A stretch of 64,000 nt of DNA, taken from Rhododendron vialii. Lineage: Eukaryota; Streptophyta; Magnoliopsida; Ericales; Ericaceae. Positions 662 to 37,022 of this stretch are shown here, one piece after another. The position numbers and the translations under genes were made by a program. Every line of letters starts with the position of its first letter. Within the stretch, counting starts at the first letter, position 1. The notes beneath the pieces were generated by a model. That model was not told where the DNA came from. It searched no databases and saw only the letters and a list, made by a program, of their open reading frames with translations. The stretch is from assembly GCF_030253575.1 (NCBI RefSeq), contig NC_080557.1, positions 41,926,501-41,990,500 on the forward strand, read 5' to 3'.

Positions 662-880
662 GAAGTGATCAACGAGGAGGATGAGAAACTGAATGGTTTA
701 AAGGGTGAGTTTGGCGACGAGGTTTATGAGGCTGTAACAACTGCCTTGACCGAGATAAATGAGTACAACCCCAGTGGTCGGTGTGTCTTCCCAGAATTAT
801 GGAATTTCAAGGAAGAAAGGAAGGCAACCTCAACCGAGGGACTGTCTTACGTGCTGAAACAATGGAAAAGGCATAAATGA
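662..880 (+). CDS. FDM/IDN2-like protein, last exon only (C-terminal half of XH domain)
   Basis: This 73-codon terminal exon encodes the second half of an XH (rice gene X homology) domain. It contains the family signature NPSGR, followed by ELWNFKEERKAT, and ends KRHK-stop. In Arabidopsis FDM1-5 and IDN2 the XH domain mediates dimerisation in complexes acting in RNA-directed DNA methylation. The acceptor is the AG at 660-661 and the exon starts in phase 0, exactly as in the two paralogues at 18.3-23.4 and 27.3-30.7 kb. Relative to those, it lacks the lysine/arginine-rich tail and has a cysteine where they have tyrosine after NPSGR. The earlier exons are outside the window, so it cannot be said whether this copy is functional or has an XS domain. 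Confidence 0.8.
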   Translation, partial: EVINEEDEKLNGLKGEFGDEVYEAVTTALTEINEYNPSGRCVFPELWNFKEERKATSTEGLSYVLKQWKRHK

Positions 881-14921: not shown

Positions 14922-15337
14922 ATTCGCCAATGCGGCAGTCGGCCTCAACGGCCCATCTTCCTGACCGAATCAGGCTGCACCTTAACAAGATTGAGCTAAT
15001 GCTCAAAGAATGAACAAGTTTCAAACTATATGCGTGCTCAATTTTTTCACATAATGACTCAAATCTTAAATGAGTCCAGCTCGAGCGTAAATCGTACTTT
15101 ACCAAGTCAAAAAATAAAAATAAACAGAAGGAAAAGGAAAAGGAAATGGATATAAAGTTCAAATATTATGCAAGTACGTAACACAATCAAGTGGTCCTGC
15201 TTCAAATAATGGCTCTTTCTCTGCGAGAGAAATCACGATTCAAAATAAGATCGGTGTAAGCAAGGCATCCAATTAATCTGGTAACAATATCAAATGAAAT
15301 GGAGAAATTCAAATGAACGTAAAATTAGAGATCAAAA
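14922..15337. other. Intergenic; nothing recognised
   Basis: Contains degenerate GAGCTC/CTCAAG-type dispersed sequence (14990-15090) and an A-rich stretch. No gene was found. Confidence 0.35.
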
Positions 15338-15827
15338 CTAGAAGACTGGTGCTGTCGTGAGACACGCGATAGCAAGGCCAAGGAGCTGGGAGATGTTCGC
15401 AATGGCTGAGGCTCCACTTTTAGGGGTACCACCTTCCGGGGACGTACCACCTACAACAATGTTATTTTCTCGAGGGCTTAAGGAAGAAAAAATCTCATGA
15501 TGATCGAGAACATTCATTTTTTCCCCTAAGATGCAATTTTGTAATCCATGTCAATTGGGTACTGGTAGATATTATTTTGGAATCCATTTAAATTTTGAAA
15601 ACAATATGTTGAAACACTGAGTCAGAGCTCATTTATCCCATGGTAAATGGGTTCCGAGATAAGGCATATCGAAAAAGAGTCCAAGAATAAAGTTGCCTTC
15701 TTGGCCATAGAAAACCAATAGAAAAAGAGGTGATCATAGTAAAATTAACAGCAGTTGGGTTTGAGAAAATTACCAGGTGGTGAAGGTGCTTCACTAGGCA
15801 TTGGAACTCCAACCGGATATCCAGCCG
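15338..15827 (-). pseudogene. Orphan last two exons of a GPI-anchored protein (LTPG-like)
   Basis: Two phase-compatible minus-strand exons are visible: 15827-15774 (GYPVGVPMPSEAPSPP) and 15450-15338 (GGTSPEGGTPKSGA, then a hydrophobic tail, ending TTAPVF-stop). A proline/serine-rich linker, small residues (SGA) and a C-terminal hydrophobic stretch form a typical GPI-attachment signal, as in GPI-anchored non-specific lipid-transfer proteins. No exon encoding the eight-cysteine lipid-transfer domain is visible in the next kilobase upstream, which is AT-rich MITE DNA. The gene therefore appears to have lost its 5' part, unless a very long intron separates it. The family assignment rests on the linker and tail only. 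Confidence 0.5.
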
Positions 15828-16217
15828 CTGCAACATAAGCATGTGTTAGAACATTTCAGAAACCGTTTACTGCACGAATAACGAAAATGGACAAACAAAA
15901 TGGCACGATCGAAAGAGTAATATCTTTTGGTCACAAAGCTAATTATTACAAACAATTATGTGCCCATATACGACTATGAGAGCTGTTTTCCCAACCCCCG
16001 ACCCTGCCCACATCCCCCCCTCCCTCTTGCCAGGAAGACCAAAATGCCTCAAATTTCCACCCTTTTAACTAATATTTTTTATTTAATTTCTTAATTCTTT
16101 TATCTTAATTATTTAATTAATTAATTTATTTATTTAATTACTTATTTAATTTTAATTTGGTTAACTCAAATTATATTTTCAGCTAAATTATGTTTTTTAC
16201 ATTTAAATTTGCCTTTA
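15828..16217. other. AT-rich intergenic DNA
   Basis: Includes a C-rich patch (15990-16030) and a TTAATTAA-rich stretch. No exon with an eight-cysteine pattern could be found upstream of the orphan GPI exons. Confidence 0.4.
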
Positions 16218-16465
16218 TATTTAAGACTCCGTTCTCTAGAACTTAACTTAAATTTGGAAATTTTGTCCTAATTAAGTTTTTTTTTTGCATTTGTTAGTTT
16301 TGAGTTATTGATTCGTCTCGACGAGAAAAATCGGAAAATAAACTTTTTTTTTTTACTTTTACCCAACTAAATTTGGCGCAAAACTAACAAATGAAAAAAA
16401 AAATCAAATAAGGACAAAATTTTCATAGTTAAATTAAGTTTAAGTTAAGTTCAAGAGAATGAGGC
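16218..16465. mobile_element. Fold-back MITE, family G (copy 1)
   Basis: Inverted arms: TCTAGAACTTAACTTAAATTT on the left against AAATTAAGTTTAAGTTAAGTT on the right, each about 100 nt. The arm includes the landmark TTGATTCGTCTCGACGAG and TTTTGTCCT. A longer copy lies at 24308-24695. Confidence 0.7.
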
Positions 16466-16564
16466 CTAAAAACTTATTATTATTTTAATTTGTCTTAACA
16501 ATAAATAATAAATAATAAAACTTCTAATCAATAATAATAAAAAAATATACATAGTTTATCAATG

Positions 16565-16890
16565 AAAATTGGAACGTTTCCGGTTCAAATAGAATAAATA
16601 CACCGTTTATATATTAAAAAATATAATTAAAAGTTCTCCAATTTTCAATTCGGTTGAACTGGTGAACATATTACTTTTTTTATCATTTAATCCTAAATGG
16701 TTGTAATGAATTTTGGCTCTAAGGCCTTTTAACGAGCACCCTAAGACTCTTTATTTAGTTTCAGGACTCTCTTAAGGTACCCATTGAAAGGCCGTAAAGG
16801 TAAAAATTGATTATGACCATCTAAGATAAAATGATTAGAAAAATAAGATCTTTGCACCGGTTCAAACAGATTGAAAATTAAAACACTTAA
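16565..16890. mobile_element. Fold-back element, family B (copy 1)
   Basis: The left arm contains TAAATGGTTGTAATGAATTT and GGCTCTAAGGCCTTTTAACG. The right arm contains their imperfect inverses (CATTGAAAGGCCGTAAAGG, TTATGACCATCTAAGATAA). It forms one long hairpin. A homologous copy is at about 17090-17395. Confidence 0.65.
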
Positions 16891-16897
16891 TCCATTA

Positions 16898-17090
16898 TGG
16901 GAATTGACTTATACACTACCCTTTAACCACATACACTTCTTTTTTTTGTCCTTATTCATGTGAATTTACCTTTTTACCCTTTCATAAGTTTTTTTACACA
17001 TTAAGGGGCAATAGAATAATTTCACACCAAATAAAGACAAAAAAAGGGAGTGTATGTGGTAAAAGATGACTGTAGAAGTCAATTTCCATT
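16898..17090. mobile_element. 193-bp MITE between the two family B hairpins
   Basis: The terminal inverted repeat ATGGGAATTGACTTATACA matches the complement of the right end (ATGGAAATTGACTTCTACA). It continues ACCACATACACT in both arms. Confidence 0.65.
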
Positions 17091-17395
17091 TTTTAACTAT
17101 ATTTTTTATAATATATAAACGGTGTATAAAATAAGTATTTCAATTTTTAATCCGTTTAAACCGGTGCAAAGAAGTTATTTTTCTTATCATTTTATCCTAA
17201 ATGATCGTAATGAATTTTTGGCTATAAGACCTTTCAATGAGCACCCTAAGAGAGACCTGAAACTAAATAAGAAGCCTTAAGGTGCTCGTCGAAAGGCCTT
17301 AGAGCCAAAAATTTACTATGACCATTTAAGATAAAATGATAAAAAAATAAGATATTTGCACCGATTCAATCGAATTGAAAATCGGAGCACTTAAA
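17090..17395. mobile_element. Fold-back element, family B (copy 2)
   Basis: The arms share TTTGCACCGGTT, TCATTTTATCCTAAATG and GCACCCTAAG with copy 1 and pair within the element (GGTGCTCGTCGAAAGGCCTT in the right arm). The end base-pairs through CCGTTTAAACCGGTGCAAAG/TTTGCACCGATTCAATCG. Confidence 0.65.
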
Positions 17396-17471
17396 TAATA
17401 TTAAATAAATAAAAGATAAAAAAGATATAAAGATTAGTGTTAAATAAATAAAGGAGTAATAAGAGAAAGAA

Positions 17472-17757
17472 CCCTGTGATATGTACCGACCAAATCCCCA
17501 CCGAAATCGTACCGATGGCCGTGCCATGCCGTCTCCGGCTACTGGACGGCCGATCCGAGCCGTCCAAAAATTCTATAAAAAAAAAAAACCGAGGGGGCAA
17601 GCACCCTACACGATGTCGTTGATTCTCGCGCGAGGCCGCCTCGGTTTTTTTTTTATAGAATTTTTGGACGGCTCGGATCGATCATCTGGTGGCCGGAGAC
17701 GGCCTAGCACGACCTTCGGTACGATTTTGGTGGGGATTTGGTCGGTATAGGATTTCT
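17472..17757. mobile_element. Near-perfect fold-back element, family C
   Basis: Arms of about 115 nt: CCGACCAAATCCCCACCGAA on the left pairs with TTTTGGTGGGGATTTGGTCG on the right. CGAGCCGTCCAAAAATTCTA pairs with TAGAATTTTTGGACGGCTCG. The loop is about 50 nt. The strong pairing explains the overlapping open frames on both strands, which are not genes. Confidence 0.8.
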
Positions 17758-17848
17758 GTAAGATTTTTGTAAGAGAAAATGGGGTTGGGGGTATTTCGGG
17801 GGTATTTTCGGAAGGGGTTTGAGAAAGCAATTTGCCGTTAGGAGCCAA

Positions 17849-18192
17849 GAGCATCTCCAATTTAACACCCTCCAAATCTCTATTTGAGATGATCAAATTA
17901 ATTTATTTTATTTGAAAAATAGATTTAGAGGATCGTACTATTTATCTCAACTCCAATCCAACATCTTATTTCTCAACTATAATACATATTTGGAGGAGAT
18001 CCTCCATAACATTCTATTTCTCAACTCTAATACATATTTGGAGGAGATTCTTCATTTTTTCTTTCATTCTCTGTATTTAGATATTTAAAGGATCAAAGAT
18101 CATCCTCCCAAATAGAAGACAGTTTTAGAGAATGGGTTGAAGAATATTTTTTCCCTAAATGACAGAAATGAAAGCGTGGGTCGGAGATGCTC
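17849..18192. mobile_element. MITE with GAGCATCTCC ends, immediately upstream of FDM-like gene 2
   Basis: The termini GAGCATCTCCAATTT and CGGAGATGCTC are inverted, and the body folds back through CTCTATTTGAGAT-type pairs. The same ends occur at 33794-34140, 34643-35359, 37842-38218 and 54725-55883. It ends about 100 bp before the proposed start codon at 18291, so it lies in the promoter or leader. Confidence 0.75.
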
Positions 18193-18290
18193 TAGGAAGA
18201 TTCGTTTTCCGAAGCAAATCAAATAGAGTCACTCCAACTCCAAAGAACTCCGGACATTCCGAAGCACGAGAAGAAGCTGCCACCGCTTCC

Positions 18291-21200
18291 ATGGCAGATG
18301 ATCGCAAAATGCCCTCCGCCAAGAAGAAGTTGCCTAACCCAATCCCCAGTTAGCCATAATAATACTAACAAATTTGTTGAACTTGCATGTAATTCTTTCG
18401 CATTTATTGTTATAAAAAACGAAAGATTTTGGTCTTTTTCAATTTATTGTGAACTGAATTTACTTTACCAGGGGTAAGGAAGACGCAAAAGCTTGCTCGG
18501 AGTCAGATGAAAAAGATGTTCGAGCAGTACGAAAACGTTGCAAAACAATTGGATGCTCAAAGAAAAGAGCTTGATCGACGTGACAAAGAACTCGAGGAGT
18601 GGGAGGCAGAGATTGATGATGAGAGAATGCAGCTCTTCAATGAGAAGGAAGAAGCGGTACAATAACCATTTTTTTAAGTTCTTGTGATGAATGAACATTG
18701 AACAAATGCATAGCCGGAATGAGTACACAACTACACATTAACTTTAAGGCGTTTCACTGGTTTGTCCAGATGTACTTGCATGCATAGCCGGGTAATCCTC
18801 TAGTTGCTATAATAAATAGGTTAAAAATATTCAACTTTTCCCAAGGTATTGTGTTTCGAAAATCGAAATCATATTATCTTATATATCTAATCGACGTGAT
18901 TTAAGGGGTGGTTTGAATCCTCGAAGATTTTTGATCATTGAAGTGAGTCCGGAAGGGCCCACATGGAGCCTTAACTGGATCATGCATTGCATTGAACGAA
19001 ATTGAGCGGACCCGGATCTTTATATTAAATACATATATCGACTAAAATCACAAGCACAACGAATCGAGGGGCGAAGATATTTTTCTCTTTAAGAAGATTC
19101 AAGTTGGTTGGCCATACTTGAAACTGTATGTTTTTTGCTTAAATCCAGCATTGCAAAGATCTGAGCTAGAATTTGTTTTTGTTATTTTTTGTTGGGTTAG
19201 TGAGCTAGAAATTGTTGGTAACGTGTGCTTCCAATCAGTTGACTCGGGCTCAATTTCAGTTCAGCTCGAGCTCAACCGAGTTGGACTTTGTTATGTAGTT
19301 CCAGAAGTTTTGCTTTTGATGTTTCCTCGTTGGTTTGGGGCAGAGCAAGGAAATCAATTTGGGCAATAATTAGCTTCTGGAAGGACTCTTGGCTATGAAT
19401 ATCGCATGACTCTCTCAAAAAGGGTAGAAGTTCTCGGTTCTTTTAGAGATCCTTATGGGGGTGTTTTAATAGAACCTTAGGGCTCTTTGGTAGATCTTGA
19501 CCATTAGTCAGTTGCCCCTCTTTCCTGGGCTTGGAAGTTCTTTGCTCTTTGTGCTTCGGGTCACTTGGTGGAACTTTGTTGTTTAGCGTTCTCATTGAGA
19601 TCTCCTCATCTCTTGGTTAAAACCAGGGGTTTATGAGACTTGATACGAGATGGTGTCAGTGTGAGATTCCAATTAGTTTTGCCGAGAGAACTCATAATTT
19701 TGGATTGATAAGTTTGTGTTCTTACGAGAGTTTGCTTCGTCACCATTGTAGCTCTTCAGAGCATGGTGGAATCATTTTACCTCATGACACCATAGCCTTA
19801 AAAGGGTAGGATCATTTTTAATGTGTCCATGTAACTAGTGCATTTAAAATCGGAGCAAATACTTTAGCAAATTTGATTGCCTTGAAAAGAAGACCATAGT
19901 TGTCTTCATTTGCTTTATTACTACTTGTTTGCTGATATGTTTGTCAAAAGATAACAAAATAGCGTCAAAGGTGACAATCGCTACCCTGGGAACTTGATGA
20001 GTCAATGACTCTGCATACATACCGTGGCACTTTTATCATGTTCCCCAGTTGTTGCATTAACTGTTGATGATGGGTGAAATATTGCTTTCGAAGGGATGGT
20101 TATGAGCTCTTATAGTGAATGTGGGTTTTGCTCCCTTTTTGATGCAGACATCTTAGATTACCTGGTTTTGATTCTTAGGAATCTGCAGAACATGAACACA
20201 GGATTTTGTGTGTGAAAATCCAGGACTTAGAGAAATAGTAAACATAATGATACAGTAACTTAAAATTTCACAATATTAAGAAGCATAAAAGAAATACATC
20301 GAACTTGCCACGAGAATGTGAAAAATGACAAAAATACTTGTAATATTATTTACCACCCCCCTGATGGCCTGCTGTCAAGTACTAATATCAGCTCCACTGC
20401 ATGACTTTGGCTGCCGGGGACGAGTTCTGAACCTGAACTAAAAGTATTTATCCATTCCTCAATGTGTTTATCGTTATATGCATCTTTTGTTGCTGTGAGA
20501 AATATGTTATGCCGTGCATCATTTCATAGTCTATCTTCTGCACTATTTTTCCCAATGCCAGCTTGTAGACCTCCGGTCAAATACATATTTCTTCTACAGT
20601 GGTTTACATTGTTTCATTCCATTTATTAGGCAAAAGAGGAGAAAAGAACTTGAGTGTCAATCTCAGATCTCTTTACATACATAAAAAGAAAAACAGAACT
20701 TTAAAGTTTAAACAACAATCTGGAAGTATTTCCCAAGGCTTCTTCTTTGGTTTATTGGTTTGGTTGTGAAATTGAGAATTTTTGTTGTCTCTGCATTGGC
20801 TTAAAAGCTTAGTAAGCTGTTCTTCCTCTCCGAAAGATCAGCTTCTGGTGCTTTCTCCGAAAGATCAATTAGGTAGGTTCTCTGGATAACTACTAGTGGA
20901 ACTTTCTCTGAGGAGCTAATAACAGTATTCGTTTCTGCAGAATGAGAGGGCAATGTTAGAGAAAAAGAAGGCTGAGGAAACTATGTTGAAGTCAGAAGAG
21001 GATGCAAAGGTATGTTATCCATTTTCTGCCTTGAACTGCATTGCCCTGAAAATAGTTTGGTAATGGTAGACTCATAACTGCGACTTAGTAAATTGCAGAG
21101 GGAGAAAGAGAAGCTCCTTGAATGAATAGTTGAACTGGAAAAAAAACTTGATGACTCACAGCCAATGGAGTTGGAGATTGCGGGCACACGAGTATCAATA

Positions 21201-23371
21201 CAAATGGCGAAGCCTATGGGTGTGGAGCATAATACGGAAATTGACAGGAAGATCAAATCCTTCGAGGAGGATCTTAAAGACAAGGAAGAAAAACTTGAAG
21301 ACATCACAACACTAGATGGGGCACTCATGATGAAGGAGCGTAATAGCAATGACGAGTTGCAGGAGGCTCGCAAAGAGCTAATTGATGTCAGTCTCTCTCC
21401 CTCTGTCTTGCACACAGAAACTAAAATCCAAAGGGAATCATTAATCTCAAACTAGGGGTTTCAGTGAAACATCAATACATAGTAGGACATAATTTGGTGT
21501 ACTGTTCTTGTTAGTGTCCTTTTACGCATGTCACTTAGACATGTAGGGTGCTTCTGACATGGATCAAAACTTGTCCTGACTTTTTTCCCTTAAACCAGGC
21601 AGTTGGACTGCTTCAAACTTTTGGCAGATCCAAGTACCATCCGTCCATCACTTGAGACACACATGAGCAATGGCGGAACCAGGATTTTGTATTTGGGGTG
21701 CGAGGACAGATTCCTGTCCACTTCCCTACAATACCTCTTTTAATGGATGTTCGTTGCGGTGTGCCTAAAAAAGATAAACAGTGGAAAAATCAACGAAGTG
21801 ATGTTTTTTCTTTTTAGGAAATGAGATTGAATGGATAGTCGAATTATACTCTCGATGTGTAAAATTATACAAGGACAAAGTATTATCCATGTATGTTAAA
21901 TGGGACTCGTTGAAAACATTCCAATTTAGGTGGTGCCAATGTGATGATTTTCACAAGTATTCTATATGTATAACCCTACGTATGCAAAGGTGAGTGAAAG
22001 GTTGGAGGGTGCCGTGGCACCATAACATATAAGCTAGGTGCGCCCCTGCACATGTGCACCATGCAAGTTATAGAGGAAAGTTTCTTGGGATCCAGCAATA
22101 GGCGGAAAACAATTAGCATTTATACCTTGTAAATTCCTCCTTGAAGTTCTTTTAATCATTCAAAGCTCTTAATTTTGTTGAAGTTCAAACTCCCAATTTG
22201 GTTATAAAGATGTCTTTGTAAGATTTTGCTTTCGAGTTTTTGCCCAGTGCCCACTCTTTCCATACATATAGTGAAAAAATGTAGTAGTAGTTAATACTTA
22301 TTTAACATGTCTGTAATTATTCAGTTGGTATATTGTTTTTTGTGTTTCTCAATTTCACTGCAAGGTATCCATGTCCCGTTTCATTTGGCTTTTGCCGCTC
22401 CTACCAGAACTTATTGGAGATTGGATTATAAATTGGCTTCCTGGAATTTTTTTCACTATTATGGATGTCAACACGAATTGATTAGCTAAAAGGGGAAAGA
22501 ACCACATAGTGTCATGCTTTTCGTATGCTCGTTTCAATACATTGTTTCATTTTGGAATGTAGAATTTGTCCAAAAGAGTTTCCTGTAAATAAACTCTTAC
22601 ACATTCAGTGGACGTCACTTCTCTTTCCCTTTAGGGTCTCATGCAAAGCAGGGCTAATATTGGAGTAAAGAAGATGGGTGAGCTTGACCCTAAGCCTTTC
22701 CAAGCAGCGGCAGAGAAAAAGTTCAGAGGCAGGTTAAGAGGCAGCGAAATAGAGGGCAAAGCAATGGAGTGGTGTGCGTTGTGGATGAAGTACCTGACGG
22801 ATCCCAGGTGGCATCCCTTCAAGGTTGTTCGAGTAGGAGGAATCAACGAGGTATGCCTCGGTGATGATGCTTTTTGGTTTTAGCAATGTTTTGATTTACG
22901 AACTAGATCATCAGGTGTTCTTTGCATTGCTACAATATTGCGAGATTGTTTCTTTTATATTGCCTATGTTTTTTTATCATCTTCTATATTGGCATTTTTT
23001 TACTGTGATTGGGTGACCCTATAGACACCTATAGTGATTCACTAAAATTGGTGTATGATTGAATAACATAAAAGGTCCTGCCCTCTTGGCTTTCCGTTGT
23101 TGAGTTTCTTATGTCCCATGGTACTGTTCAGGAAATCATTGACGCGGAGGATGATAAACTGAAAGCTTCGAAGGAAGACCTCGGGGATGAAGTCTATGAG
23201 GCTGTTACAAAAGCGTTGACCGAGATGAACGATTGTAACCCTAGTGGACGTTACCCCGTTAAAGAACTGTGGGATTTTAAGGAGGGGAGGAAGGCTACAC
23301 TAAAGGAGGGAATATCGCACCTGCTGATAGGCTTGAACCTGAAGAAGCGGAAGAGGAACACTCGTTCTTGA
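18291..23371 (+). pseudogene. FDM/IDN2-like gene 2: coiled coil plus XH domain, one in-frame stop
   Basis: Six phase-consistent exons: 18291-18348, 18472-18656, 20941-21009, 21099-21386, 22635-22850 and 23132-23371. Read through, they would give 351 residues. Exon 1 encodes a short lysine-rich leader (MADDRKMPSAKKKLPNPIP). Exons 2-4 encode an E/K/R-rich coiled coil ending in the family motif SNDELQEARKELI. Exons 5-6 encode a full XH domain (ANIGVKKMGELD, WHPFKVV, NPSGRYPVKELWDFKEGRKAT). Codon 113 is TGA (21123-21125, exon 4), where the paralogue has arginine (RIVEL), so translation would end at 112 residues without XH. No other lesion is seen, so the decay is recent or the allele is variable. 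There is no zf-XS or XS domain. Intron 2 is 2.3 kb; intron 4 holds a hAT-like MITE. FDM/IDN2 proteins act in RNA-directed DNA methylation; an activity for this copy is doubtful. Confidence 0.8.
21668..22048. mobile_element. hAT-like non-autonomous element in an intron of FDM-like gene 2
   Basis: Terminal inverted repeats CAATGGCGGAACC / GGTGCGCCCCTG. It is flanked by CACATGAG (21660-21667) and CACATGTG (22049-22056), an 8-bp duplication with one mismatch, as expected for hAT transposition. It is 381 bp with no transposase. Confidence 0.65.
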
Positions 23372-24307
23372 TGTGGCCTTCTTTTGATGGTTGGTGTTTC
23401 GACTTTTGTTGGGGGGAAAGGAAATCCAGCAGCAGAATGTCTTGGTAGCTTTCTGGTTTGATTCCGCGCTGCTGAATCTCAAGCTCTCTCTTTTGATTTT
23501 GCCACATCTTGTTTTCCGCGCTCTTTTGTGGAATCATAGGATAGGTGTTTCCTCCTGTTTTGTTTTCTGATGCAAAATGATGTACTGAACTATTGTTGAC
23601 TTGTACTGACTTTTGGAGATGGAACAATGATCTTGTGTATGTCTTTTTATTCATCATGTTGTTGTCTCCCCTTTCTATGATTACGGCTTTTATTCGTCGC
23701 ATATATCAATTACAAATAATTGAGGACCATGCATGAACAATTTTAACTTCCAGTGTTGGATTTTCCTGGAGATGCTCTGGAGACTAAAAGCTTTGTATGG
23801 AACATGTGAAAAGGAAGAGAGAGTTCACAATTTTCCCTTTCCTTTGTTTGGTTTCAGAGGTAAGAGAAGAGAGAACGGCAAAATAGTGTTCTTAGAATAC
23901 TAAAATTTTCCGTTCCATTTTCTCCCATTTTTCTTCTTAATTATTTCCCCTTTTCTTCCCTCACGTTCCATAAGTTCTAAACCAAGCATAAAATACTCTG
24001 TCTGCCTGTCACTACAGGCCCCCCAGTACTCCGGGGCTCATTACAAGGTGCAGTGGCTAATCACAACTATTCAAAAGTATTTTCAACGGTTTTCTTGGAA
24101 GAATTTTTTTTAAAATCTGGACCTTTAATTGCTAAGATAGATGGCTACGATTACTCACCGGCCACATCTGTAATAAGTTTGCTCACTACTGGGCTGCCGC
24201 TTCCCAGGCGATTCTCCTCTTTTTACTACTTTTTACTCACTCAATACTCAATTGTGATTTTTTTATACGAATCTTAAAAAATATTTTAAACAAAATTATT
24301 CAAGTTG
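23372..24307. other. 3' flank of FDM-like gene 2 and intergenic DNA
   Basis: 23372-23690 matches the 3' flanks of gene 3 (GTGGAATCATAGGAT, GGTGTTTCC, GTTTTGTTTT), so it is the shared 3' untranslated/downstream segment. Nothing else was recognised up to 24.3 kb. Confidence 0.5.
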
Positions 24308-24695
24308 TGTTCTCTTGAATTCAACTTAAACTTAACTTAAATTTCGGAGTTTTGTCCTTATTTAATTTTTTTTTCGTATTTGTTAGTTTTGCGCCAAACT
24401 TTTGTGAGTTATTGATTCGTCTTGACGAGAGGAATCGGAAAAGTTAAAAAAATTTACTCTTACCCAAGTATTTTGAGAAATAACTATTTTTTAGCAAAAA
24501 AAAAAGTCATTTTTTTGGGTTAAAAAGTGGTTATTTCTCAAAATACTTGGGTAAAAGTAAAAAAAAATTACTTTTCCGATTCCTCTCGTCGAGACGAATC
24601 AATAACCCATAAAAATTTGGTGCAAAATTAACAAATACAAAAAAATTCAAATAAAAACAAAACTCCCAGATTTAAATTAAATTCAAGAGAACACA
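24308..24695. mobile_element. Fold-back MITE, family G (copy 2)
   Basis: The arms start GTGTTCTCTTGAATTCAACT and end GAATTC-type AAATTCAAGAGAACACAA. The inner arms pair through CTCGTCGAGACGAATCAATA. The stem is about 185 nt per arm, centred near 24500, where GGTTATTTCTCAAAATACTT mirrors AAGTATTTTGAGAAATAACT. It is related to 16218-16465. Confidence 0.8.
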
Positions 24696-25149
24696 ACCTT
24701 ACTCAATTTACGTGGGATGCCGATGCAGTCCCAACTCCCAAACGTCATGGTGCACATTTCGTCGGGTCCTAATAAAGAAACTATAGATGTGGCTGGTTTT
24801 AGATAAAAAAGTAAATTTAACTTTTTGTTTTTTTTTATTTAAATTTTTGTAAATTATTAATTCTTTTCGACAATAGAAATTGAAAAGATAAAAAATTGTA
24901 TGACTTATTTTTTAATCATATTTTTTAATGAATATAAAAATAAGCCAAAAAGACATATTGTATGGCCTTTTTTCCCCCCAAAATATCTCTATTAGAACAG
25001 ACTTTCCCATTATCATGCATGCTCTACTTGCCTCCAGGAAGCTCTTGCAATTTGCTGGGTTTTGATGGCCAAGTGTTCAGTTGGCAATGGTAGTAATCTT
25101 TATACTGGGAATCACAAAAAATGTGTGCATAAAATAATATTTCCAGAAA

Positions 25150-25355
25150 AAACTTATTTACGGAGCTTTACGTAAAGAAGACGTACGGAACCTAATCGCG
25201 CGCGTCCCAAGTGTTTTTGGACGGTCGGATTGAAAACCAATTGTGACCAATGATAATTAATTTTGACCGGTCAAAATTAAAAATAAATTTCAACCATTGA
25301 TTGCGCGAATGGACGGCCGTAATTGCGTCGAAGCCTCAGTAAATAAATTTCTCTC
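25150..25355. mobile_element. MITE with ACTTATTTACGGAGC ends and GGACGG core
   Basis: The left end TTATTTACGGAGCTTTACG resembles the complement of the right end (TTATTTACTGAGGCTTCGACG). Internal TTTTTGGACGGTCGGATT is the motif shared with several other elements in the window. A related piece with ACTTACTCACGGAGGAGCC occurs at 32690-32800. Confidence 0.5.
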
Positions 25356-25765
25356 TAATATATTTGGTGTACAAATGGGTTTGGCATTTCGGCCATCAAG
25401 AGGCTGTACCTACTACCTACGTCTCTGGAGTAATTCCATGTGTAATGTGTATCTATGCCTGAAATGTTTTATGTTTTTTAAATTATTGTCTTATAAAAAA
25501 AATTAAATTTATTAAATAAGATTCATATTGCATATTTTTAGTAATATACGTCGAGAGATATAAGCCGTTCAAAATGCACGCAAAATCGTAATGGACAATT
25601 AAATAGGAACGAAGAGAATAGTAGTATTAAAAACATTCCTAACAGGTGAGATTTCTTCTCTAAATAAATTGACTTCAGCAAGAAAAAGATTAACTTACCT
25701 AATAAAATGCATATACACAATTCAAAAAAATAAAATGCATATATATACTTATACAGTAAGCTTCT

Positions 25766-26120
25766 AATAAGGGCGTCCTTACCGTATTATGGTAAGGGCT
25801 TTCCCTTTTCTTCTCTTTTCCGACCAAATTTTGATGATCCGAGCCGGTCAATGTATTCAGAACGTGATTTTAAGAGTACACGCAAGAAATCAGCAAAAAA
25901 AATGACCGGAAATGGCTTGATTTGAGCAATTTTTATTTGAACCGTTCGATAAAATACAAACAAAAACTGCTCGGATCAAGCCCTTTTCGGTCTTTTTTTT
26001 TGCTAATTTCTCGCGAGTACCCTTAAAATCACGTTCTGAACACATTGACCGGCTCGGATCATCGCAAATTGGTCGAAAAGGGACGTCCTTATCGTAATAC
26101 GGTAAGGGCGCCCTTATTAG
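25766..26120. mobile_element. Palindromic element E1, left member of a pair flanking (TA)n
   Basis: A fold-back of about 355 bp. The left arm contains CCGAGCCGGTCAATGTATTC, AGAACGTGATTTTAAG and AATCAGCAAAAAAAATGACC. The right arm carries their complements. Ends are rich in TACCGTA-TACGGTA. It pairs in sequence with E2 (26207-26562), and less closely with E3/E4 at 40.5-41.3 kb. Confidence 0.75.
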
Positions 26121-26136
26121 AAGTTTTGTGTATATA

Positions 26137-26138
<2 letters not shown>

Positions 26139-26198
<60 letters not shown>

Positions 26199-26200
26199 AA
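26139..26200. repeat. (TA)n followed by (CA)n microsatellite
   Basis: About 24 TA units to 26186, then CA units to 26200, lying exactly between palindromes E1 and E2. Confidence 0.95.
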
Positions 26201-26206
26201 TCTTCC

Positions 26207-26562
26207 TGTAAGGGTGCCCTTACTGTATTACGGTAAAGAAGCCCTTTTCCTCACTAATTTGTGATGATTTGAGCCGCTCAATGTGTTCAGAACGTGATTT
26301 TAAGGGTACTCGCAAAAAATCAGCAAAAAAAACGATCAGAAATGGCTTGATCCGAGCAGTTTTTGTTTGTATTTTATCGAATGTTTCAAATAAAAATTGC
26401 TCAAATCAAGTCCTTCCCTATTTTTTTTTGCTGATTTCTCGCGAGTACACTTAAAATCAAGCTCTAAACACATTGGGCGGCTTGGATCATCGAAATTTGG
26501 TCGGAAAATGAGAGAATAGGGAACGCCCTTACCGTAATACGGTAAGGGCGCCCTTATAAGAA
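26207..26562. mobile_element. Palindromic element E2, right member of the pair
   Basis: Same composition as E1: terminal GGGTGCCCTTACTGTATTAC and GTAATACGGTAAGGGCGCCC, inner AGAACGTGATTTTAAGGGTA and AATCAGCAAAAAAAACGATC with complements in the right arm. The total is about 356 bp. Confidence 0.75.
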
Positions 26563-26839
26563 GTGGACTGATATATGCTAGTTCCAAAATGGTTTGGTTC
26601 GGTTTTAACTATGAATCTTTAATTGAAAACCAGTAATCAAACCAAAATAAACTATTCTAAATTTTTTTTAAACCATAACCTAGCCAATGGACCGCAAAAC
26701 CAGACCAAATAAGACGATTCAGTTCGGATCAAAACGGTTTAATGGTTCGAACGGTTTTTTAAACACCCCTGCTTTGGGCTCAAATTTCAAAGAAGCCTCA
26801 TCAATCATTTCTCCATGTTTTTACTCACTCTATTACGTT

Positions 26840-27020
26840 TGGATCAGTTTTTAAAAAAAATTTGAGAAATTCTGTAGGATTATGAGTGGGGAAAGAAATA
26901 AGAATAATGATTAAAAGTAGAGGTAATGATTAGAGAGATAGAGAGAAATGAAAATAATAATTGAAAATAAAAATAAGTAATGATTGGAAGCAGAACTAAG
27001 AGTGTTTTCTTGAACTAAGA
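26840..27020. mobile_element. Second copy of the MITE found in the F-box pseudogene
   Basis: Shares GTTTGGATCAGTTTTTAAAA, GGATTATGAGTGGGGA and GTAATGATTGGAAGCAG with 9957-10172. It lies about 240 bp upstream of the proposed start of FDM-like gene 3. Confidence 0.6.
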
Positions 27021-27022
27021 GT

Positions 27023-27258
27023 GTTTACTCGTGTACTTTTTTTTTTTTTTGGTAAGTAATACTCGTGTACTTTGAAGAATGCAAGCGTGGAAGAAAGCTC
27101 TGCAACTTATTACTAGTACTGTACTAATTACTGCGACCCTCGGTACTCTGCTTCCACACAGTCCCACACCCCCACATGTAGTAGTCTTTTCATACCCGCT
27201 CTGTGCAAGGACGGTAAAGAGGAGGAGGAGAGAGAGACAGAGGGAAGTGATCAGCGAC
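27023..27258 (+). promoter_or_regulatory. Presumed promoter/leader of FDM-like gene 3
   Basis: Lies between a MITE (to 27020) and the proposed ATG at 27259. It contains a T run (27039-27051) and a purine-rich AGGAGGAGAGAGAGACAGAG stretch just before the start. No TATA element stands out. An in-frame ATG at 27079 opens a longer frame, but its sequence does not look coding. Confidence 0.3.
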
Positions 27259-30200
27259 ATGGTTTCAGATGATCTTCTGAAAGAGAAAGAGAGAGAGGGA
27301 GAGAGTTCTTACGGAGGAGAAGTGAGAGGTTTTGTGCACCAGAGTAATAGATGGAAGGCATATTGTCGTTGGACCAAACCTACAGCATATCTTCTTGATC
27401 GAGGTGAGATCTCACCCTCCAATTTGTATTTTAATTGCTTCTTCTACCATGCATGGTCCACAGTGTGGTTTATTTGGTGAGAAAGTGTGAGATAATAAAG
27501 AATGGGAGTCTTTTCTCACCATTTTCTTTGTGAGATTGTGAGGGGAGAGTCGATCAAAAAATCTTCTCTTTTCATTTCTCCCTGTAATACTCAATTGTAA
27601 TACTCAATCCAAATGAGTGATTCGCTAGAAACTATAAACATTTATTTTTCTTTTTTTATGAAATCCCTCCATCTAACTGTTTTGTTTTTCTTTCTTTTTC
27701 TAGTGAAATCCCTCCATCCAAAGAGGCTTATTTTCTTCTTCTTCTTCTTCTTCTTCTTTTTTTTCCGTTTTTCTATTCCCCGAAAGAAGGAATTGTCTCT
27801 GCAAGAACTCCTCTTGAGTCTTGTCCAACGCCATGAATGACATTAACACACCAAACAGAGAGACAAACAAGTATAATAGGAGCTATTAGCTTACTCTTGA
27901 CCCATGCATGGCCAGATAGTAAAGGTCAGAGGCTCACTCCCTCCTCAGGTCTCACTTTCCCCACCTGGGTGCTATCAAGTATCACCCCTTTGGAGCCAGT
28001 TGAAACGGGCTTTGCTCGGACCTTAATTGACCTCCGGTAGCAGACCGTGGGATAGGTGCCTAAGAGTACTCGAGTTGCCCCGTAAGCAGGCCCGGACACT
28101 TGAAAAAAAAAAATATTAGCATACTTTTGGTCTTTGTTTGTTTCCTTTCCCGGAGAGAGGTATATCTCTATTTCTCTATGCATTACAGGTGTGGTTGAAA
28201 AATGGTTTGTTTTTCCAACATTCCCTCTTTAATATTTTTCCCTGAATTCGTCGGTGACTCGCTGAACATGTCATGCACGGTTTCAGTAAAAATAATATGG
28301 TTGAAAGGGAAAAAAAATTGTAGTTTATGACCTAGAGTTTGATAATCAGTTTGATCCGCGTGACAAATTATGTTCATTGTTTCATTGCTATGAATTTTTA
28401 ATGTTTTGAAATAGCCGTTCATAGTATCTTTTATTGTGATGTTGTCATTTTTCAGAATCTCCAATGGATACTACTGAGGAGGGAATAGTTGCGAAAGAGC
28501 CCTTCTCTGGGAAATACCCTCACACTATCCACAGTGCGTGATAGTAATTTATTTGAAATTTCATTCTTCTGGATTTGTGTTAAACATAATGTTCATAATG
28601 GGTGTTGTTTTGTTCTGGTTTTGTTTGGCGGAATTTAATTTGAACTAGACGTGAGGAAGATGACAAACAATACTGTGAGTGAGCTGGAAGAAATCTTGAA
28701 TGAGCATGAAAAGATAGCAAAGCATTTAGAAGCTCGTGACATGGAAATTAAGAATCTTCAAAAGGAGTTGGAGGAGGAGAGAAGGAAGATCTACATGGAT
28801 CTTAAGAACCGTGAAAAAGAGTTGGAGGAGAAGAGAAGAAACATTGAGGAGGCAAGGGAGATCGACAAGGATATTAAGAATCATGAAAAAGAGTTGGAGG
28901 AGGAGAGGAGGAAGATCAACACTGAGAAGAAAGCAGCTGAAAAAGCTTTAAGGCTGGCAGAAGACCGAAAGGTAGTGTGCCCCATTTTTTAATTTTTTAG
29001 TAGAGTGACAATTATGTCGTTGATTCGTACTAATTTTGTTATTGCATGATTTACTATGAGTTCCTACGGTAGATAGAAAACGAAAAGCTCCGTAGTAGGA
29101 TAGTTGAACTGCAGAAGAATCTTCAAAATGCTTCAACTTTGGCCGGAAAACAGAAGGTATTTTGACAGTTTATCATTGATTGCGCAAGTAAAATGCCAAT
29201 TTTGTAGTTGAACTCAAAAAATTAAACTATTGCATGATATGTTATGAGATTCTATGGCAGAGAGGGGAAGAAGAGCTCTGTAGTATGATTTTTGAATTGC
29301 AGAAGAAACTTGAAAATGCTTTAAGGTTGGCAGGAGAACGAGAGGTAATATGCCCTGTTCTACATTGTTAATTATGCAAGTAAAAAGACAATTATGTTAC
29401 TTAATTATACTAAGTTGACTATTTCGCAATGTACTGTGACTTTCTATGGCAGATAGGAGAGGAAAAGCTCCATAGAAGGTTTGCTGAACTGCACCAGAAA
29501 CTTGATTCCAAGAAGGCACTATGGCGGAAGGAAAAGGGAAATCTCAATAGAAGGGTTGCTGAACTGCAGAAAAAACTTAAGTCCAAGAAGGCACTGAAGT
29601 TGGCACTAAAAGTCATAAGAGAATTCGATGAGGATGGGCAAGTGGGGCTCGAGAACAAGATGGATGGTGCGGTGGAACTTAAGAACGAGACCAATGCGAT
29701 TCACCAAGATATGAAAGAAAAGGACAAACATATTGAACATCTGGAATCGCTCATTAGCATTCTTACAGCTAAGGAGCTGAAGAGCAATGATGAGTTGCAA
29801 GAAGCCCGCAAAGAGTTAATCAACGTAAGCAATATTATTTTCTCATTTCTATCCTTTATCGCTATTTTTAATGAAGACGTCAAGAAGATATTCACTTGGA
29901 AGTTGCAACACAAGTCCTTGAATGTCCAGTGGATATCTAATGGTCTTCCACTCTAGGGTTTCTTGGATAGCCATGCTTACATTAGTGTCAAGAAAATGGG
30001 AGAGCTTGATAGTAAGCCCTTCCAAACTGCAACGAAGAGAAGGTACGTGGATGAAGCAGCAACTGATGGCGAAGTGACAACCAAGAGAAAATATGATGAA
30101 GATGAAACAACAGATGAACAAGCCATAGAGTTGTGCTCGTTGTGGGAGAGTTATCTAAGGGATCCAAGCTGGCATCCTTTTAAGGTCATCTGCATGGAAG

Positions 30201-30700
30201 GAGATCATAAGGTATTCTTTGCATTACTATGAATTTGCTAGATTCTGTCGTTTACCTTGCCTATGCAAATTTTTTGTTTTGTTTTATGTTTATTAGCATT
30301 TGAACGTGATTGGGTAGTCTCAGACATCAATAGTATTTTAGTTTCACAATGAAATGATGACCATGTGTTAGAAATAGAAAATGCTATGCCTTTTTAGCTT
30401 TCTATTATTGTACGGTTTATATCCTATGTTACTACTGTTCAGGAAGTGATCAACGAGAAGGATGAGAAATTGAAAACCTTGAAGGAACAACTTGGCAATG
30501 AAGTCTATGAGGCTGTAACAATAGCCTTGATTGAATTGAACGATTATAATCCTAGTGGACGTTACCCCGTGCATGAACTGTGGAATTTTAAGGAGGAGAG
30601 GAAGGCAACAGTAAAGGAGGGAGTATCTCACCTGCTGAAACAGTTGAATTTGTATAAACGAAGGAATTTGTATAAACGGAGGAGAAAGTCTCGTTCTTGA
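27259..30700 (+). CDS. FDM/IDN2-like protein 3: expanded coiled coil plus XH domain
   Basis: Eight phase-consistent exons: 27259-27403, 28456-28533, 28649-28971, 29073-29156, 29261-29344, 29453-29824, 29957-30211 and 30443-30700. They are open throughout and give 532 residues. Exons 1-2 (about 75 residues) match no FDM domain. Exons 3-6 encode a long E/K/R-rich coiled coil with serial repeats, ending SNDELQEARKELI. Exons 7-8 encode the XH domain (ISVKKMGELDSKPFQTA, WHPFKVI, EVINEKDEKL, NPSGRYPVHELWNFKEERKAT) and a basic tail. There is no zf-XS or XS domain, unlike Arabidopsis FDM1-5/IDN2. A role in RNA-directed DNA methylation through XH dimerisation is inferred from the family only. The start is uncertain: ATG 28465 in exon 2 is a plausible alternative that would make exon 1 a 5' leader. 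Intron 1 contains a SINE, and intron 2 uses the donor GTGCGT. Confidence 0.85.
27900..28113 (+). mobile_element. SINE in intron 1 of FDM-like gene 3
   Basis: 214 bp ending GGCCCGGACACTTG and a run of A. It is flanked by TATTAGCTTACTCTTG (27884-27899) and TATTAGCATACTTTTG (28114-28129), a 16-bp duplication with two mismatches. The 3' part resembles the conserved end of a widespread plant SINE (GCAGGCCCGGACAC). It is in the same orientation as the host gene. Confidence 0.75.
29073..29580 (+). repeat. Serially duplicated 84-nt coiled-coil exon units in FDM-like gene 3
   Basis: Exons 29073-29156 and 29261-29344 are each exactly 84 nt and in phase 0. The start of exon 29453 is a third copy: ENEKLRSRIVELQKNLQNA, GEEELCSMIFELQKKLENA, GEEKLHRRFAELHQKLDSK. 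A fourth, intron-less unit follows (GNLNRRVAELQKKLKSK). The intervening introns also share TTACTATGAG/GTTATGAG-like and TCTATGGCAG ends, so exon plus intron were duplicated together. Gene 2 has one such unit (exon start 21099). Confidence 0.85.
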
Positions 30701-31189
30701 TGTGGTCTTCTTCTACTTTTGTTGGGGGGGAGGAAAGTTTGGTAGCAGATTACCTAGGTAAATAACATGCAGCTCTAAAGCTTTCTATTTTGATTCTGCC
30801 CATCTTGTTTTTTGCACTCTTTTGTGGAATCATAGGATGGGTGTTTCCCCCTGTTTTGTTTTTGATTCAAAACGATGTACTAAGAACTTCTAACTTTTTG
30901 AGATCAAACACTGATCTTGTATATATATTGCCTTCCGATTTTAACTATGGGGAAATTATTTATTGCCCCTCGGCACAACTTGGTGTCCTAGGCTCATTTA
31001 CCACATCAATGTGTGGTGTGGTAGGGCTTGAATCCCCACATATGGTGCCCTCGGGGCACTAAGTAATCTCTCCTTTCTATAGCTAGACACGAAAGTATTG
31101 ATGATCAGAACATAATTGAGGACTACAATTTCATAGTATCCTAAATTTACTCTTGCTCTTTCAGTGCATATTCATATTTGATACAGGGA
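30701..31189. other. 3' flank of FDM-like gene 3
   Basis: Probable 3' untranslated region and downstream DNA, including GTGGAATCATAGGATGGGTG, which is shared with gene 2 and with 31190-31425. No coding exon was seen. Confidence 0.5.
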
Positions 31190-31425
31190 AGCAGATTAAG
31201 TAGCAGGTCTTTGCGTATAACATGCTACAGCTGCTAATTTTGTAGGCCTTTCTGTTTTCATGTGGACCTTCTTTTTTCCTGTGCGCGCTCTATTGTGTCA
31301 TAGGATGGGTGTTTCCCAGTGGGCTTTGCTACTGATTTTCAAAATAATTTCCTCAAATATTCAATTCTTTATCGGTCTAAACTTCAATCTTGTTCTGTAT
31401 ATATACAGCAGCCTTCTGATGTAAA
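31190..31425 (+). repeat. Orphan duplicate of the FDM-like 3' flank
   Basis: It repeats in order landmarks of the flank at 30740-30940: AACATGC...CAGCT, CTTTCT-TTTT, TGTG-TCATAGGATGGGTGTTTCCC, GATTTTCAAAATAA-like and GATCTTGT/AATCTTGTTCTGTATATA. No XH exon precedes this copy, so it is probably the remnant of a fourth gene copy or a local flank duplication. Confidence 0.6.
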
Positions 31426-32922
31426 ACTATGTCAAGCAAAATGGGAGGTTTTAGGCATGTAGCTGAGGGTGGTATTGGTGCAGGAGGGTGTGGCGTGGTT
31501 GGAAAATGGGACGTTCTTGTACATCAGGTTGGTGTCTTGCCAACCATGGTTCCCCTCGTCGTGATGCCGCTTTCTACGTAAAGCCACTATTTCGGTGCAA
31601 GACTTCATTCCTATTTCTTTTAGGATAACATTTTCTTTGCTGATCAGAAAACTACGCCAAGCAAGCAAAGTAAAAGTGAAACGAAGGAATAAATCGGGTC
31701 TAGGTATCCAAAGCCTTGTTTGTTTTTGCTTTATGGGGGCTGTAGGAATCCAATGACCTTTTCCAAACAGAATGATGAAGAATAGAGGAAGATTAGACAG
31801 CTTGCTATCTCAATATCTCAATATGTGAACAAGAACATAGCTAGCTGAGCTCTCCCACCCTCCAATGCATGTGGAAACTGCAATTCAACACAAGATCATT
31901 GGGTCTTCCTTCAGATGTGTCCCACTTGGACTTAAAGGTGGAAATGTGAATAGAAGACCTGGTAAGTAGTAGTACGATCCATGGATTGAATTTTACTCCT
32001 GGGAAAATCCAGAATCCCACCTTTGAATTGTGGTTGGAAGACTTTGGTAGGGAATTAGAGGCATGATAAGTAAATGTTCGATTGGAACTCCGGCACCCAG
32101 GATTAGTCGAGATTCGCGTAAGCTGATCTGGCCACCTAAATTAAAAAAAAAAAAAACCTAGTGGAAATTTTTTGAAATTTAACCAGTCTTTCTTTTTTTT
32201 TTTTTATCAGCAAATTTTCTTTCATAAATCTTTGAATAAGATTACGAAGATTTAACGGATCAAGGACACACCAGCGAAAACGCCACCCGAGAACCAAACC
32301 TAAAAGAAGACAAGGAGCCAGCCGAAATGCCACAAAGAAAACTCAACCGAAACAACATGAGTTTCAAATTTGCTCCCAAATCTTTCTTAAGCCTTGTTCG
32401 ATTCCATACAATAAAAAAAAGTCAAACAGGTGAGAACCAGGATCAATGTCCTTCCAAATCAATTTCAACCATTTTTACAAATTTCAAAATGCCATTGGCC
32501 AAATCTATTTCAAGCCCTCAAAATTCTGAAATATAGATACACAAGTAGATATTATAATTAAACAGTCATAGATATATATACACATGGTACACACTCAAAC
32601 ATACATTACTCCGGCTCCATACATTTCATCTTTTTGCTGCTCTTTCACTTTCCCATATCAATTATACCCAATATATAATACATGAGAAAAACTTACTCAC
32701 GGAGGAGCCCTGAAAAAGTTTTACGGCGCTCAATCTCTCGACCGTCCAAAAGTGTTTTGGACGGCTGAGATTGTGCGGAGGCGTCGGCTTTCTCTCATAA
32801 TACATACCCAACAGCCAAACTACTAGTAGTTAACAGTTAAAAAGAAAAATGGCGCCGAAAGGGTAAAAATAATGAACAAAGTTAAAAAGGTAGATCCAGT
32901 GAAATATTCCTCCTTTTATTTT
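31426..32922. other. Intergenic between the FDM cluster and the expansin gene
   Basis: Mostly unremarkable. A T-run followed by ATCAGCAAATTTTCTTTCAT (near 32192) may be a minus-strand LINE tail, but no target duplication was found. 32690-32800 holds a small inverted element with GACCGTCCAAAAGTGTTTTG and its complement. 32840-32922 is probably the 3' untranslated region of the expansin gene. Confidence 0.4.
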
Positions 32923-35900
32923 TCAAACTCGGAAGTTCTTTCCAGTGAAGGTTTGACCAAACTGCCAATGGGCCGGGACCATGTTCCACGAGGTGGAGGT
33001 CCGTCTGTCGCTTCCGGTGACCCGGAAAGAAAGGGCCTGGCCCACCAACACCGCGTTGGACTGCCAGTTCTGGCCCCAGTTCCGGCTCATGCTCATCCAG
33101 TCCGTTCTGGACCCTTTTACGCTCACCCTCACGATGTCACCCGCTCCTGCGACGTTGGTGACCAGGACAAGGTTGAAGTAGCGGAAACCGTTGATCGTGA
33201 ACCTTATCCCGCCTTGCTTCCGGCATGGCACCCTGCGTAAATAAATGGCAAAGTCAGGGGCTAGGTTGGTTCAACTGTTTTTTTTTTTTTTCTTCTTCCC
33301 GAACGGCAGAAACTGATTGGCTAAGGTTGGACCAGAAATAATTTGACATTGGTGGAAAAAGGATATCCTTGTCCCACCAAGAACTTTACTCCTGTTTCAA
33401 TGCTCTACCCTGTGTAATCAATTTCTTAATAACAACCATCATATGGTTGAACTTTTTAAAAGCAGGGCAATTACATTTGCCGAGCAAGACAAATATTGAC
33501 TCGCGCATTGTGACTATTGCAAAAGCGTAACCCAAAATGATCTCTTCCGGCATGTCAATTGTAACTATCATAGGTTTGCAAACGGGCAGTAAAGTAGATG
33601 TAATGGGATTTCACCTACTACGGAGCGTGTCCAACGTTTCAAGTATAAATATCTTTTTTTCTTTGTGCCCTTTGGGGTGCATCCTCCACGTGCATTGTAG
33701 ATCCTGGGCGGCGGCGCGGACAGAAAATCTAGAGTCACCTCGCAACCCAAATCTCTATTTTTACCAAGTGCTGGTATTTACCCTTGCACATAAGAGCATC
33801 TCCAATCCATACAAAATAGAGGATTGATGTAACACATTGAGGGGAGATTTTGTAATTTATTCCACTTTTTCTTCACTTTTTCTATTTTTTGGGAGAATTT
33901 TTGAGGGACCCACCGTCCTTTTTAGAGTTTGGTCCTCCAAAAGTAAATTTGGTCCTCTAAAAATGGAGGACCAAAAGTAAATTTGGAGTACAAATTTCCT
34001 CCAAACTCTAAAAAGGACGGTGGGTCCCTCAAAAATTCTCCCAAAAAAGTACAAAAAGTGAAGAAAAAGTGGAATAAATTACAAAATCTCCCCTCAATGT
34101 GTTACATCCATCCTCTATTTTGTATGGATTGGAGATGCTCTAAGCAGTAGACAGTAGTGGAGGTGAAGAAATAAGTAAAACCAACTAGGGGGCCACCCTT
34201 TCACATTCTCAGTTGAGAGGTCAATGAGTCAAATCTTGTCGCTTGCATGAAATAATTATTAATTTGTCTCTATAAAAGTGTCCCCCGTTTTTAATTTATT
34301 TCTTCGAACCCAACTATGGGAATCACAAGTTGTGCACCGTTTGGGGTTTTATATATGTGGAGTTTTCACGCAAATGATCCAAAATGTTTTTTGTTTGGAA
34401 TATTTTTTTATTAGCCTTTTAGAAATCAAGTGCCTGATTGATCATCCAATTTTTTTTTTAGAATTTTTACGTTCAAATTCCGAATTAGACTTTAAAGTTC
34501 AAGATTGAACTAAATGACCAATATGTAATTCTTTGACGTAATTTTCCTACCGCTTAACATAAAAAAGGATGAAATAATTAGGTAATTTCAGAAAGACCGC
34601 AATTCCAACCAACAACCCACTTAAATGCGCAAAGATCATTAAGAGCATCTCCACTAGCTTAGCCAAAACACAATATTCGACAAAATGGCGACAAAAGGGG
34701 GGAAAACACAGACCCGGCAGCCTCTTTTGAGAGGTCGCCAGTTTAACCTCGGTTCCAGTCCCTCGCTGGGTGAGGCAAGCTTCTTGCGCTCGCTTGCTTC
34801 GATTCTTGCTGCAATGTCATCGTCGGTCAGCAATACCACTCTCTCCGTTCCAGCGTCATCGCCAAAGGACATTTTCAACCGTGAATAGCCCAACCTCGTC
34901 ATCGTCGGAGGTTTTATTTTTTGGGGTTTTCAGGGGGTTTGATTTGTGGGTTTTTCAGTTCTATGGTTTGCGATCTATGTTTTTTTTCAGTTCTGTGGTT
35001 TCATCGGATGTTTGATTTTTTTGTTTCAATTTTGAGGTTTGATTTGTGGGTTTTTCAGTTTGAGAGAGAGAGATGTGGTTCCTATCGATGGGTTTCAAGA
35101 GTTGCCGTTCACTCTCTCTCTTCTTATTCTAAAAGGTGGTTTCCGGTAAGTGAATTTCTGTGTTTCCGATGAGTGAGTTTCAAGATTTCTGGGATAACGA
35201 CAAAGGGAAAGGTGGTTTACTTTGATGTCCTTACTTTATTCTAAATGCCTAGGGGTGTTGAGAGGCTGTTGGGTAAACTACAAATTAGTGGCTACCTAAC
35301 ACACTTTTCCTAGCCTAGCCAAAATGGCTAGAAAAATGGTTAAGCTGTTGGAGATGTTCTAACACGAGTAATCAAGCTTGCTCGATTAGGTTTGAGAGAA
35401 ACTAATTTGCAATACCAAAGTTAATGACAAGACACAGCTCCATTGACCCAGAGGGGTGCTCGAAATGACTACTCATGGACACGAAGTCAAGATCTTTACC
35501 AACCGAGCTACCCTCTGGATCCAAAAGGACACAGTGAACAAATCATGGGTCTTTCGGTTAATTGAGAACGTAGTAAATACCCAACTAAAATCTGGTCCAC
35601 AACACAAGGACCAAAACAGAGCATGACCCACGACAAAGCAAAAGACCCTACACATAAAAAACAGAGCAAGAGACAGAGTGAGTTAAAGACAAGGAGAAAA
35701 AGAAATTTACCGGCGGTAAGCAACGGGCACAATTCCGGCACGGTACTCGGCAATTTTAAGAAACATCGGCATGGCGAGGTCGAAGTGGGTCCGAGGAGGG
35801 TTGCACCAGCCGCCGTTGTCGTTGGGGAGGGCGTAGTTCGGAGGGCAGAAGTTGGTGGCGGTGACCAGGATCGAGGGGCTGCCGGAGTGGCACCAGGTGG

Positions 35901-37018: not shown

Positions 37019-37022
<4 letters not shown>

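Follow-up and report, generated by a model that had tools for sequence, protein, structure and literature searches.

A truncated pair of IDN2/FDM-family paralogues in Rhododendron vialii with coiled coil and XH domain, no detectable XS or zf-XS domain, and one copy interrupted

Introduction

Among the known systems closest to the genes analysed here are Arabidopsis IDN2/RDM12 and its partners IDP1/FDM1 and IDP2/FDM2, in which a coiled coil is likewise followed by a C-terminal XH domain. The XH domain mediates the pairing of IDN2 with IDP1 and IDP2, being both required and on its own sufficient for this binding, and the coiled coil is needed for the formation of IDN2 homodimers (PMC3342958). 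In yeast, the E600Q substitution in IDN2 breaks the interaction with IDP1/2, and W616A leaves it intact with a reduced pull-down (PMC3342958). Binding to IDN2 is not shared by the whole family, as neither AT3G12550 nor AT4G01780 co-purified with it (PMC3342958). According to the same work IDP1 and IDP2 do not bind double-stranded RNA (dsRNA); contrary to this, FDM1 was found to bind dsRNA with a 5′ overhang (PMC8872474, PMC6631971). The zf-XS domain is present in six of the nine Arabidopsis XH/XS proteins, and three members, IDR1-3, have XS and XH domains without zf-XS (PMC3935573).

Arabidopsis FDDM1 and FDDM2 also pair via XH. When the XS domain of FDDM1 is deleted the protein still binds FDDM2 in yeast, 5′-overhang dsRNA is no longer bound and the mutant is not complemented (PMC8872474). 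A natural arrangement closer to the one described below has been reported from Hypericum perforatum, where FDM4-like A and C have neither zf-XS nor XS. These two and FDM4-like B and D lie on one strand between positions 220,754 and 241,969 of one contig, and according to the authors a ~6 kb region carrying D and A may have been duplicated to give B and C, or the other way round (PMC6631971). Transcripts are listed for all four genes, that of A being aligned over only 29.3% with an identity of 84.8%. Among the proteins surveyed in that study XS is missing from ~8.5% and zf-XS from ~16%, with the accuracy of the sequences awaiting confirmation according to the authors (PMC6631971). Family proteins without zf-XS and XS are thus not new.

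Here we analyse a stretch of 64,000 nucleotides from Rhododendron vialii (GCF_030253575.1, contig NC_080557.1, forward strand positions 41,926,501 to 41,990,500), hereafter called the window, of which no description was found in the open-licence literature.

Results

A profile search of the ORFs detected the XH domain (PF03469; Pfam cut-off 22.2 bits) at three places on the plus strand of the window, which we call gene 0, gene A and gene B. No further XH copies were found when the A and B proteins were compared by tblastn with both strands of the whole window at E ≤ 10; the remaining hits were minus-strand, coil-like matches around 52.2-52.8 kb (E 0.004-0.021), together with a few others at E values of 0.5 or more. 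Judged from their sequences, genes A (18.3-23.4 kb) and B (27.3-30.7 kb) are IDN2/FDM-family paralogues on the same strand. Their exon borders were set by eye and the first exons of both are guesses, between which no mutual match was found.

The model of gene A has six exons. The proposed exon 1 (18291..18348) is weak, with a poor-looking donor (CCA/gttagc, judged by eye and unscored) and no counterpart found in gene B. Exon 2 (18472..18656) is the first coil exon, beginning VRKTQK..., and is supported by the match of gene A residues 21-121 to 28651-28950 in gene B (tblastn, E 6e-7). The next coil exon (exon 3, 20941..21009) was placed on the basis of frame and splice borders only, and exon 4 (21099..21386), which contains the end of the coil (...NDELQEARKELID), is supported by the match of gene B residues 263-362 to 21096-21386 (tblastn, E 6e-11). 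The N-terminal half of XH is encoded by exon 5 (22635..22850; profile positions 1-62, 57.4 bits in ORF 22635-22883), and the C-terminal half together with the final stop by exon 6 (23132..23371; 103.6 bits in ORF 23072-23371).

Exon 4 of gene A holds an in-frame TGA at 21123..21125, which is codon 113 of 352 with the final stop counted and lies upstream of all XH sequences. At the comparable residue, three of the four gene B coil units have an arginine when aligned by eye. If translated, the product from the proposed start would be a coil fragment of at most 112 residues. Since the TGA precedes XH, gene A is not complete, and of the two complete-looking gene models seen in the first-pass annotation only that of gene B can be retained. 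An alternative acceptor right behind the TGA (...aatag/TTGAAC), read by eye, was rejected because its use shifts the frame.

Gene B can be modelled with eight exons encoding 532 amino acids in a frame that is open throughout. Exon 1 (27259..27403) is a proposal without a Pfam match above the cut-off, and exon 2 (28456..28533) is likewise proposed, from frame and splice borders. Exon 3 (28649..28971) encodes coil and contains an internal near-duplication with a period of 72 (28774-28907). Exons 4 (29073..29156) and 5 (29261..29344) are both 84 nt long and each encodes a coil unit of 28 residues, corresponding to four heptads; they are repeats of one another, with an identity of 69.9% when the introns are included (28999-29313 versus 29187-29505). 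Two more related units and the end of the coil are found in exon 6 (29453..29824), overlapped by a tandem repeat with a period of 75 (29444-29595). Exon 7 (29957..30211; 64.1 bits in ORF 29957-30232) encodes the N-terminal half of XH, which in the alignment has 13 residues more than that of gene A, and exon 8 (30443..30700; 109.8 bits in ORF 30398-30700) the C-terminal half and the stop. An 18-nt unit is tandemly duplicated at 30646-30683, near the C-terminus, so that a basic stretch is repeated.

All 12 introns are GT-AG (five in gene A and seven in gene B), and in both genes the exon starting with VRK is entered in phase 1 and all later exons in phase 0. Identical phases had initially been assigned to all three XH-encoding places; this is correct for A and B, the sequence at 662-880 being one exon. 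A block upstream of XH, NDELQEARKELI, is also common to genes A and B. By eye, gene A has one copy of the coil unit that is repeated in gene B, whose coil was apparently lengthened when whole exons and parts of exons were duplicated in frame. The score for heptad-like windows in the coil was 0.81 for gene B, compared to 0.28 ± 0.09 in 200 shuffles, and 0.54 for gene A, compared to 0.25 ± 0.11 in 200 shuffles. The excess ahead of XH is therefore clear in gene B and less so in gene A, with a simple, home-made score that is not specific because it also flags parts of XH.

Gene 0 is represented by a single last exon (662..880) encoding the C-terminal half of XH (111.1 bits in ORF 593-880); the remainder of the gene lies before the start of the window. 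In a three-frame plus-strand read-through of 1-902 nothing but this XH piece exceeded a curated cut-off, and the missing part was not found in 1-661. DUF7553 appeared in the same scan on the same residues (E 0.32, below the cut-off).

The first-pass annotation described the products of A and B as coiled coil plus XH with no zf-XS or XS domain, and this has been borne out. Neither XS nor zf-XS was found at E ≤ 10 in the joined gene B protein or in the two pieces of gene A, nor at E ≤ 1 with all Pfam profiles in the three plus-strand frames of 881-28482 (read as 881-9882, 9681-18682 and 18481-28482, with stops as X). The only other matches in 881-28482 were WWC1, DUF7179 and FMP23, each weak and below the cut-off. 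The same scan recovered both XH exons of gene A and can therefore detect a split domain in raw DNA, the positive control being this split XH and not an XS gene. XS and zf-XS were also absent at E ≤ 1 from the three plus-strand frames of 1-902, and a profile scan of 30701-37702 gave no match at all. The search for XS covered the plus strand up to position 37702, since minus-strand sequences could not be spliced to genes A or B. It is thus supported by these profile searches that the two loci comprise coil and XH without detectable XS or zf-XS. In this respect they differ from IDN2, which carries an N-terminal zinc finger and an XS domain. Gene B presents this architecture as a full model beside a same-strand paralogue, and gene A only as an interrupted frame.

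The joined XH domain of gene A, downstream of its stop, scores 164.8 bits over the whole profile (positions 1-131), and that of gene B 168 bits, with 15-131 as the best stretch. No relatives were found in the PDB for the gene A last-exon ORF at E ≤ 1 or for gene B at E ≤ 0.01. In last-exon numbering, Glu31, Trp47 and Glu59 are invariant in all three XH copies. The distance of 16 between Glu31 and Trp47 is that of E600 and W616 in IDN2 (PMC3342958), and the distance of 12 between Trp47 and Glu59 is that of W520 and E532 in FDDM1 (PMC8872474). From this spacing only, we infer that the three residues are those tested in IDN2 and FDDM1.

A comparison of the last exons gave a dS of 0.48 for A and B, 1.40 for A and gene 0 and 1.36 for B and gene 0. 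The 3′ flanks agreed in 190 of 255 aligned columns for A and B, 101 of 207 for A and gene 0 and 99 of 241 for B and gene 0, with 61 of 112 for A and an arbitrary stretch as a baseline. Genes A and B are therefore sisters by these measures, and gene 0 is a more distant XH paralogue. The similarity extends over the last intron, last exon and 3′ flank of gene A (22905..23640, plus strand), which is 70.1% identical to 30202-30924 of gene B over 773 columns. Compared with the last exon, the A-B dS is higher in the exon for the N-terminal half of XH (1.23) and at the coil end (1.17) (Fisher's test on rounded synonymous counts, p 0.0056, the comparison having been picked after the data had been seen). 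This post hoc difference suggests that the 3′ end of the pair underwent gene conversion or recombined later. The local cluster of three genes proposed earlier comes down to a pair; the gene 0 exon lies 17.4 kb from gene A and minus-strand ORFs with SWIM and WD40 domains are found between them. Downstream of gene B, at 31248-31317, there is a short 3′ UTR-like fragment, with 74% identity to gene B over 73 columns and 86% to gene A over 36 columns.

Discussion

On the present evidence, genes A and B are two truncated duplicates from a known family, and one of them is broken. We consider it fairly probable that the ancestor of the pair was one 5′-truncated duplicate of an IDN2/FDM-family (XH/XS) gene in which the coiled-coil and XH exons would have survived and those for zf-XS and XS would have disappeared. 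Genes A and B would have arisen afterwards via local duplication, the truncation presumably preceding the duplication. Gene B would then give rise to a 532-amino-acid protein of coil and XH with no XS domain for RNA. Such a protein might pair via XH with full-length family members and thereby take part in RNA-directed DNA methylation, either as a structural partner or as a competitor, and gene A would be a decaying pseudogene. The domain content, the open frame of gene B, the stop in gene A, the absence of XS/zf-XS matches from the scanned DNA and the relatedness of A and B are direct results of the analysis; expression, the first exons, the order in which truncation and duplication occurred, the binding of partners and an effect on methylation are what we infer.

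A different view, which we find rather unlikely, is that both genes are non-functional relics of a tandem duplication, with gene B at an earlier stage of decay. This would agree with the stop codon in gene A, and neither gene has the XS domain that FDDM1 needs for function (PMC8872474). The fragment at 31248-31317 may be the trace of another partial duplication, and the Hypericum authors call the accuracy of domain-lacking sequences unconfirmed as yet (PMC6631971). However, gene B has remained open over its 532 codons and eight exons, all with GT-AG borders. Moreover, the A-B dN/dS is below 1 in all three regions compared (0.36, 0.33 and 0.43), although as a pair average it says nothing about present-day selection on either copy. 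In the same regions synonymous change per site exceeds replacement change (Fisher p 0.0029, 0.0006 and 0.0065, from rounded counts).

The stop codon cuts gene A ahead of XH, and for this reason a decaying pseudogene is the most likely state of this copy. Gene A could still be alive if splicing around the stop or a downstream start produced a short XH protein of ~225 amino acids. Indeed, the first in-frame Met past the stop is at 21165, the frame is open from the stop to the end of the gene, and the XH domain matches the full profile with the 164.8 bits given above. Exon 4 could be skipped in frame because it is 288 nt long with phase 0 at both ends, and it contains 15 in-frame AG dinucleotides downstream of the stop. 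On the other hand, AG dinucleotides by themselves are weak acceptor evidence, and with the stop in the fourth of six exons nonsense-mediated decay would be expected. In addition, among last-exon residues unique to one of the three copies, 10 occur in gene A, compared to 3 in gene B (11 in gene 0), and gene A has therefore changed faster than gene B in this exon. We regard a live gene A as unlikely. That gene B is instead an ordinary full-length XH/XS gene with XS exons that are very divergent or lost from the assembly appears very improbable. In favour of this reading, its first exons are proposals only and a search at E ≤ 1 with HMMER filters can overlook very degenerate domains. Against it, no XS or zf-XS match was obtained in the intervals separating A from B (3.9 kb) and gene 0 from A (17.4 kb), and the split XH of gene A was easily detected in the same read-through.

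Considered as an XS-less product of a truncated ancestor, gene B resembles the laboratory XS deletion of FDDM1, in which coil and XH are kept; natural FDDM1 and FDDM2, composed of XS, coil and XH, are unlike it (PMC8872474). The binding by XH alone in IDN2, the pairing of XS-less FDDM1 and the spacing of the conserved residues together mean that gene B could join family members as a partner while contributing no XS domain. It had been proposed that XH-only proteins of this locus could dimerise with full-length FDM/IDN2 without binding RNA; given the precedents of FDDM1 and the IDN2 XH domain this would be plausible for gene B at most, gene A being interrupted. The associated idea of a modulator or dominant-negative role has to be widened. 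RNA-non-binding partners may be normal in the IDN2 complex, as reported for IDP1/IDP2 (PMC3342958) and disputed for FDM1, and a dominant-negative effect is thus not the only outcome to be considered.

The natural arrangement most similar to the R. vialii pair is that of Hypericum FDM4-like A and C, likewise XH-family members that lack zf-XS and XS and are arrayed on one strand with their paralogues. The species differs, and in the accessible text of that report neither a premature stop nor an exon-amplified coil is mentioned, so that the two loci are compared by description (PMC6631971). If gene B is what we propose, it fits this report of array members without N-terminal domains. Expression and binding to family partners, if they occur, would in addition make it a natural counterpart of the laboratory XS deletion, and plants would be able to keep the XH module separate from RNA binding. 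To go further and regard gene B as a natural regulator that was retained without XS, its coil extended through amplification of 28-residue exon units, entering IDN2/FDM complexes with no RNA-binding domain of its own and so tuning RNA-directed DNA methylation beside a dying sister, is a doubtful step that we offer as speculation.

The surroundings of the pair contain a number of other features. Ten neighbouring ORFs were searched with profiles and five gave a match at E ≤ 0.001, all on the minus strand, corresponding to a SWIM zinc finger (3403-4212), WD40 (9613-9957), an expansin-type DPBB domain (35707-36192), a Development and Cell Death domain (52088-53053) and rhomboid (58446-59015). Some of these neighbours look plant-like, and the window as a whole has the look of genomic DNA from a plant. 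Together, the minus-strand ORFs within 3403-6837 resemble what we take to be a FAR1/MULE-type transposase-derived gene; the other two ORFs scanned there had no Pfam match. A repeat upstream of gene B (26905-27013) is 81.9% identical over 116 columns to 10020-10134, a copy that sits in a minus-strand ORF (9945-10553) without Pfam match. Between A and B, at 25739-26570, there are nested inverted repeats containing motifs such as GGTAAGGGCGCCCTTA, with arms 25897-26073 and 26253-26429 (88% complementary) and 25754-25902 and 26422-26570 (85% complementary). These are probably foldback transposable elements. A further, MITE-like foldback at 24369-24645 has arms (24369-24504 and 24510-24645) that are 85% complementary and separated by a spacer of 5 nt; both this and the nested repeats are among the 25 inverted-repeat pairs listed of a total of 33.
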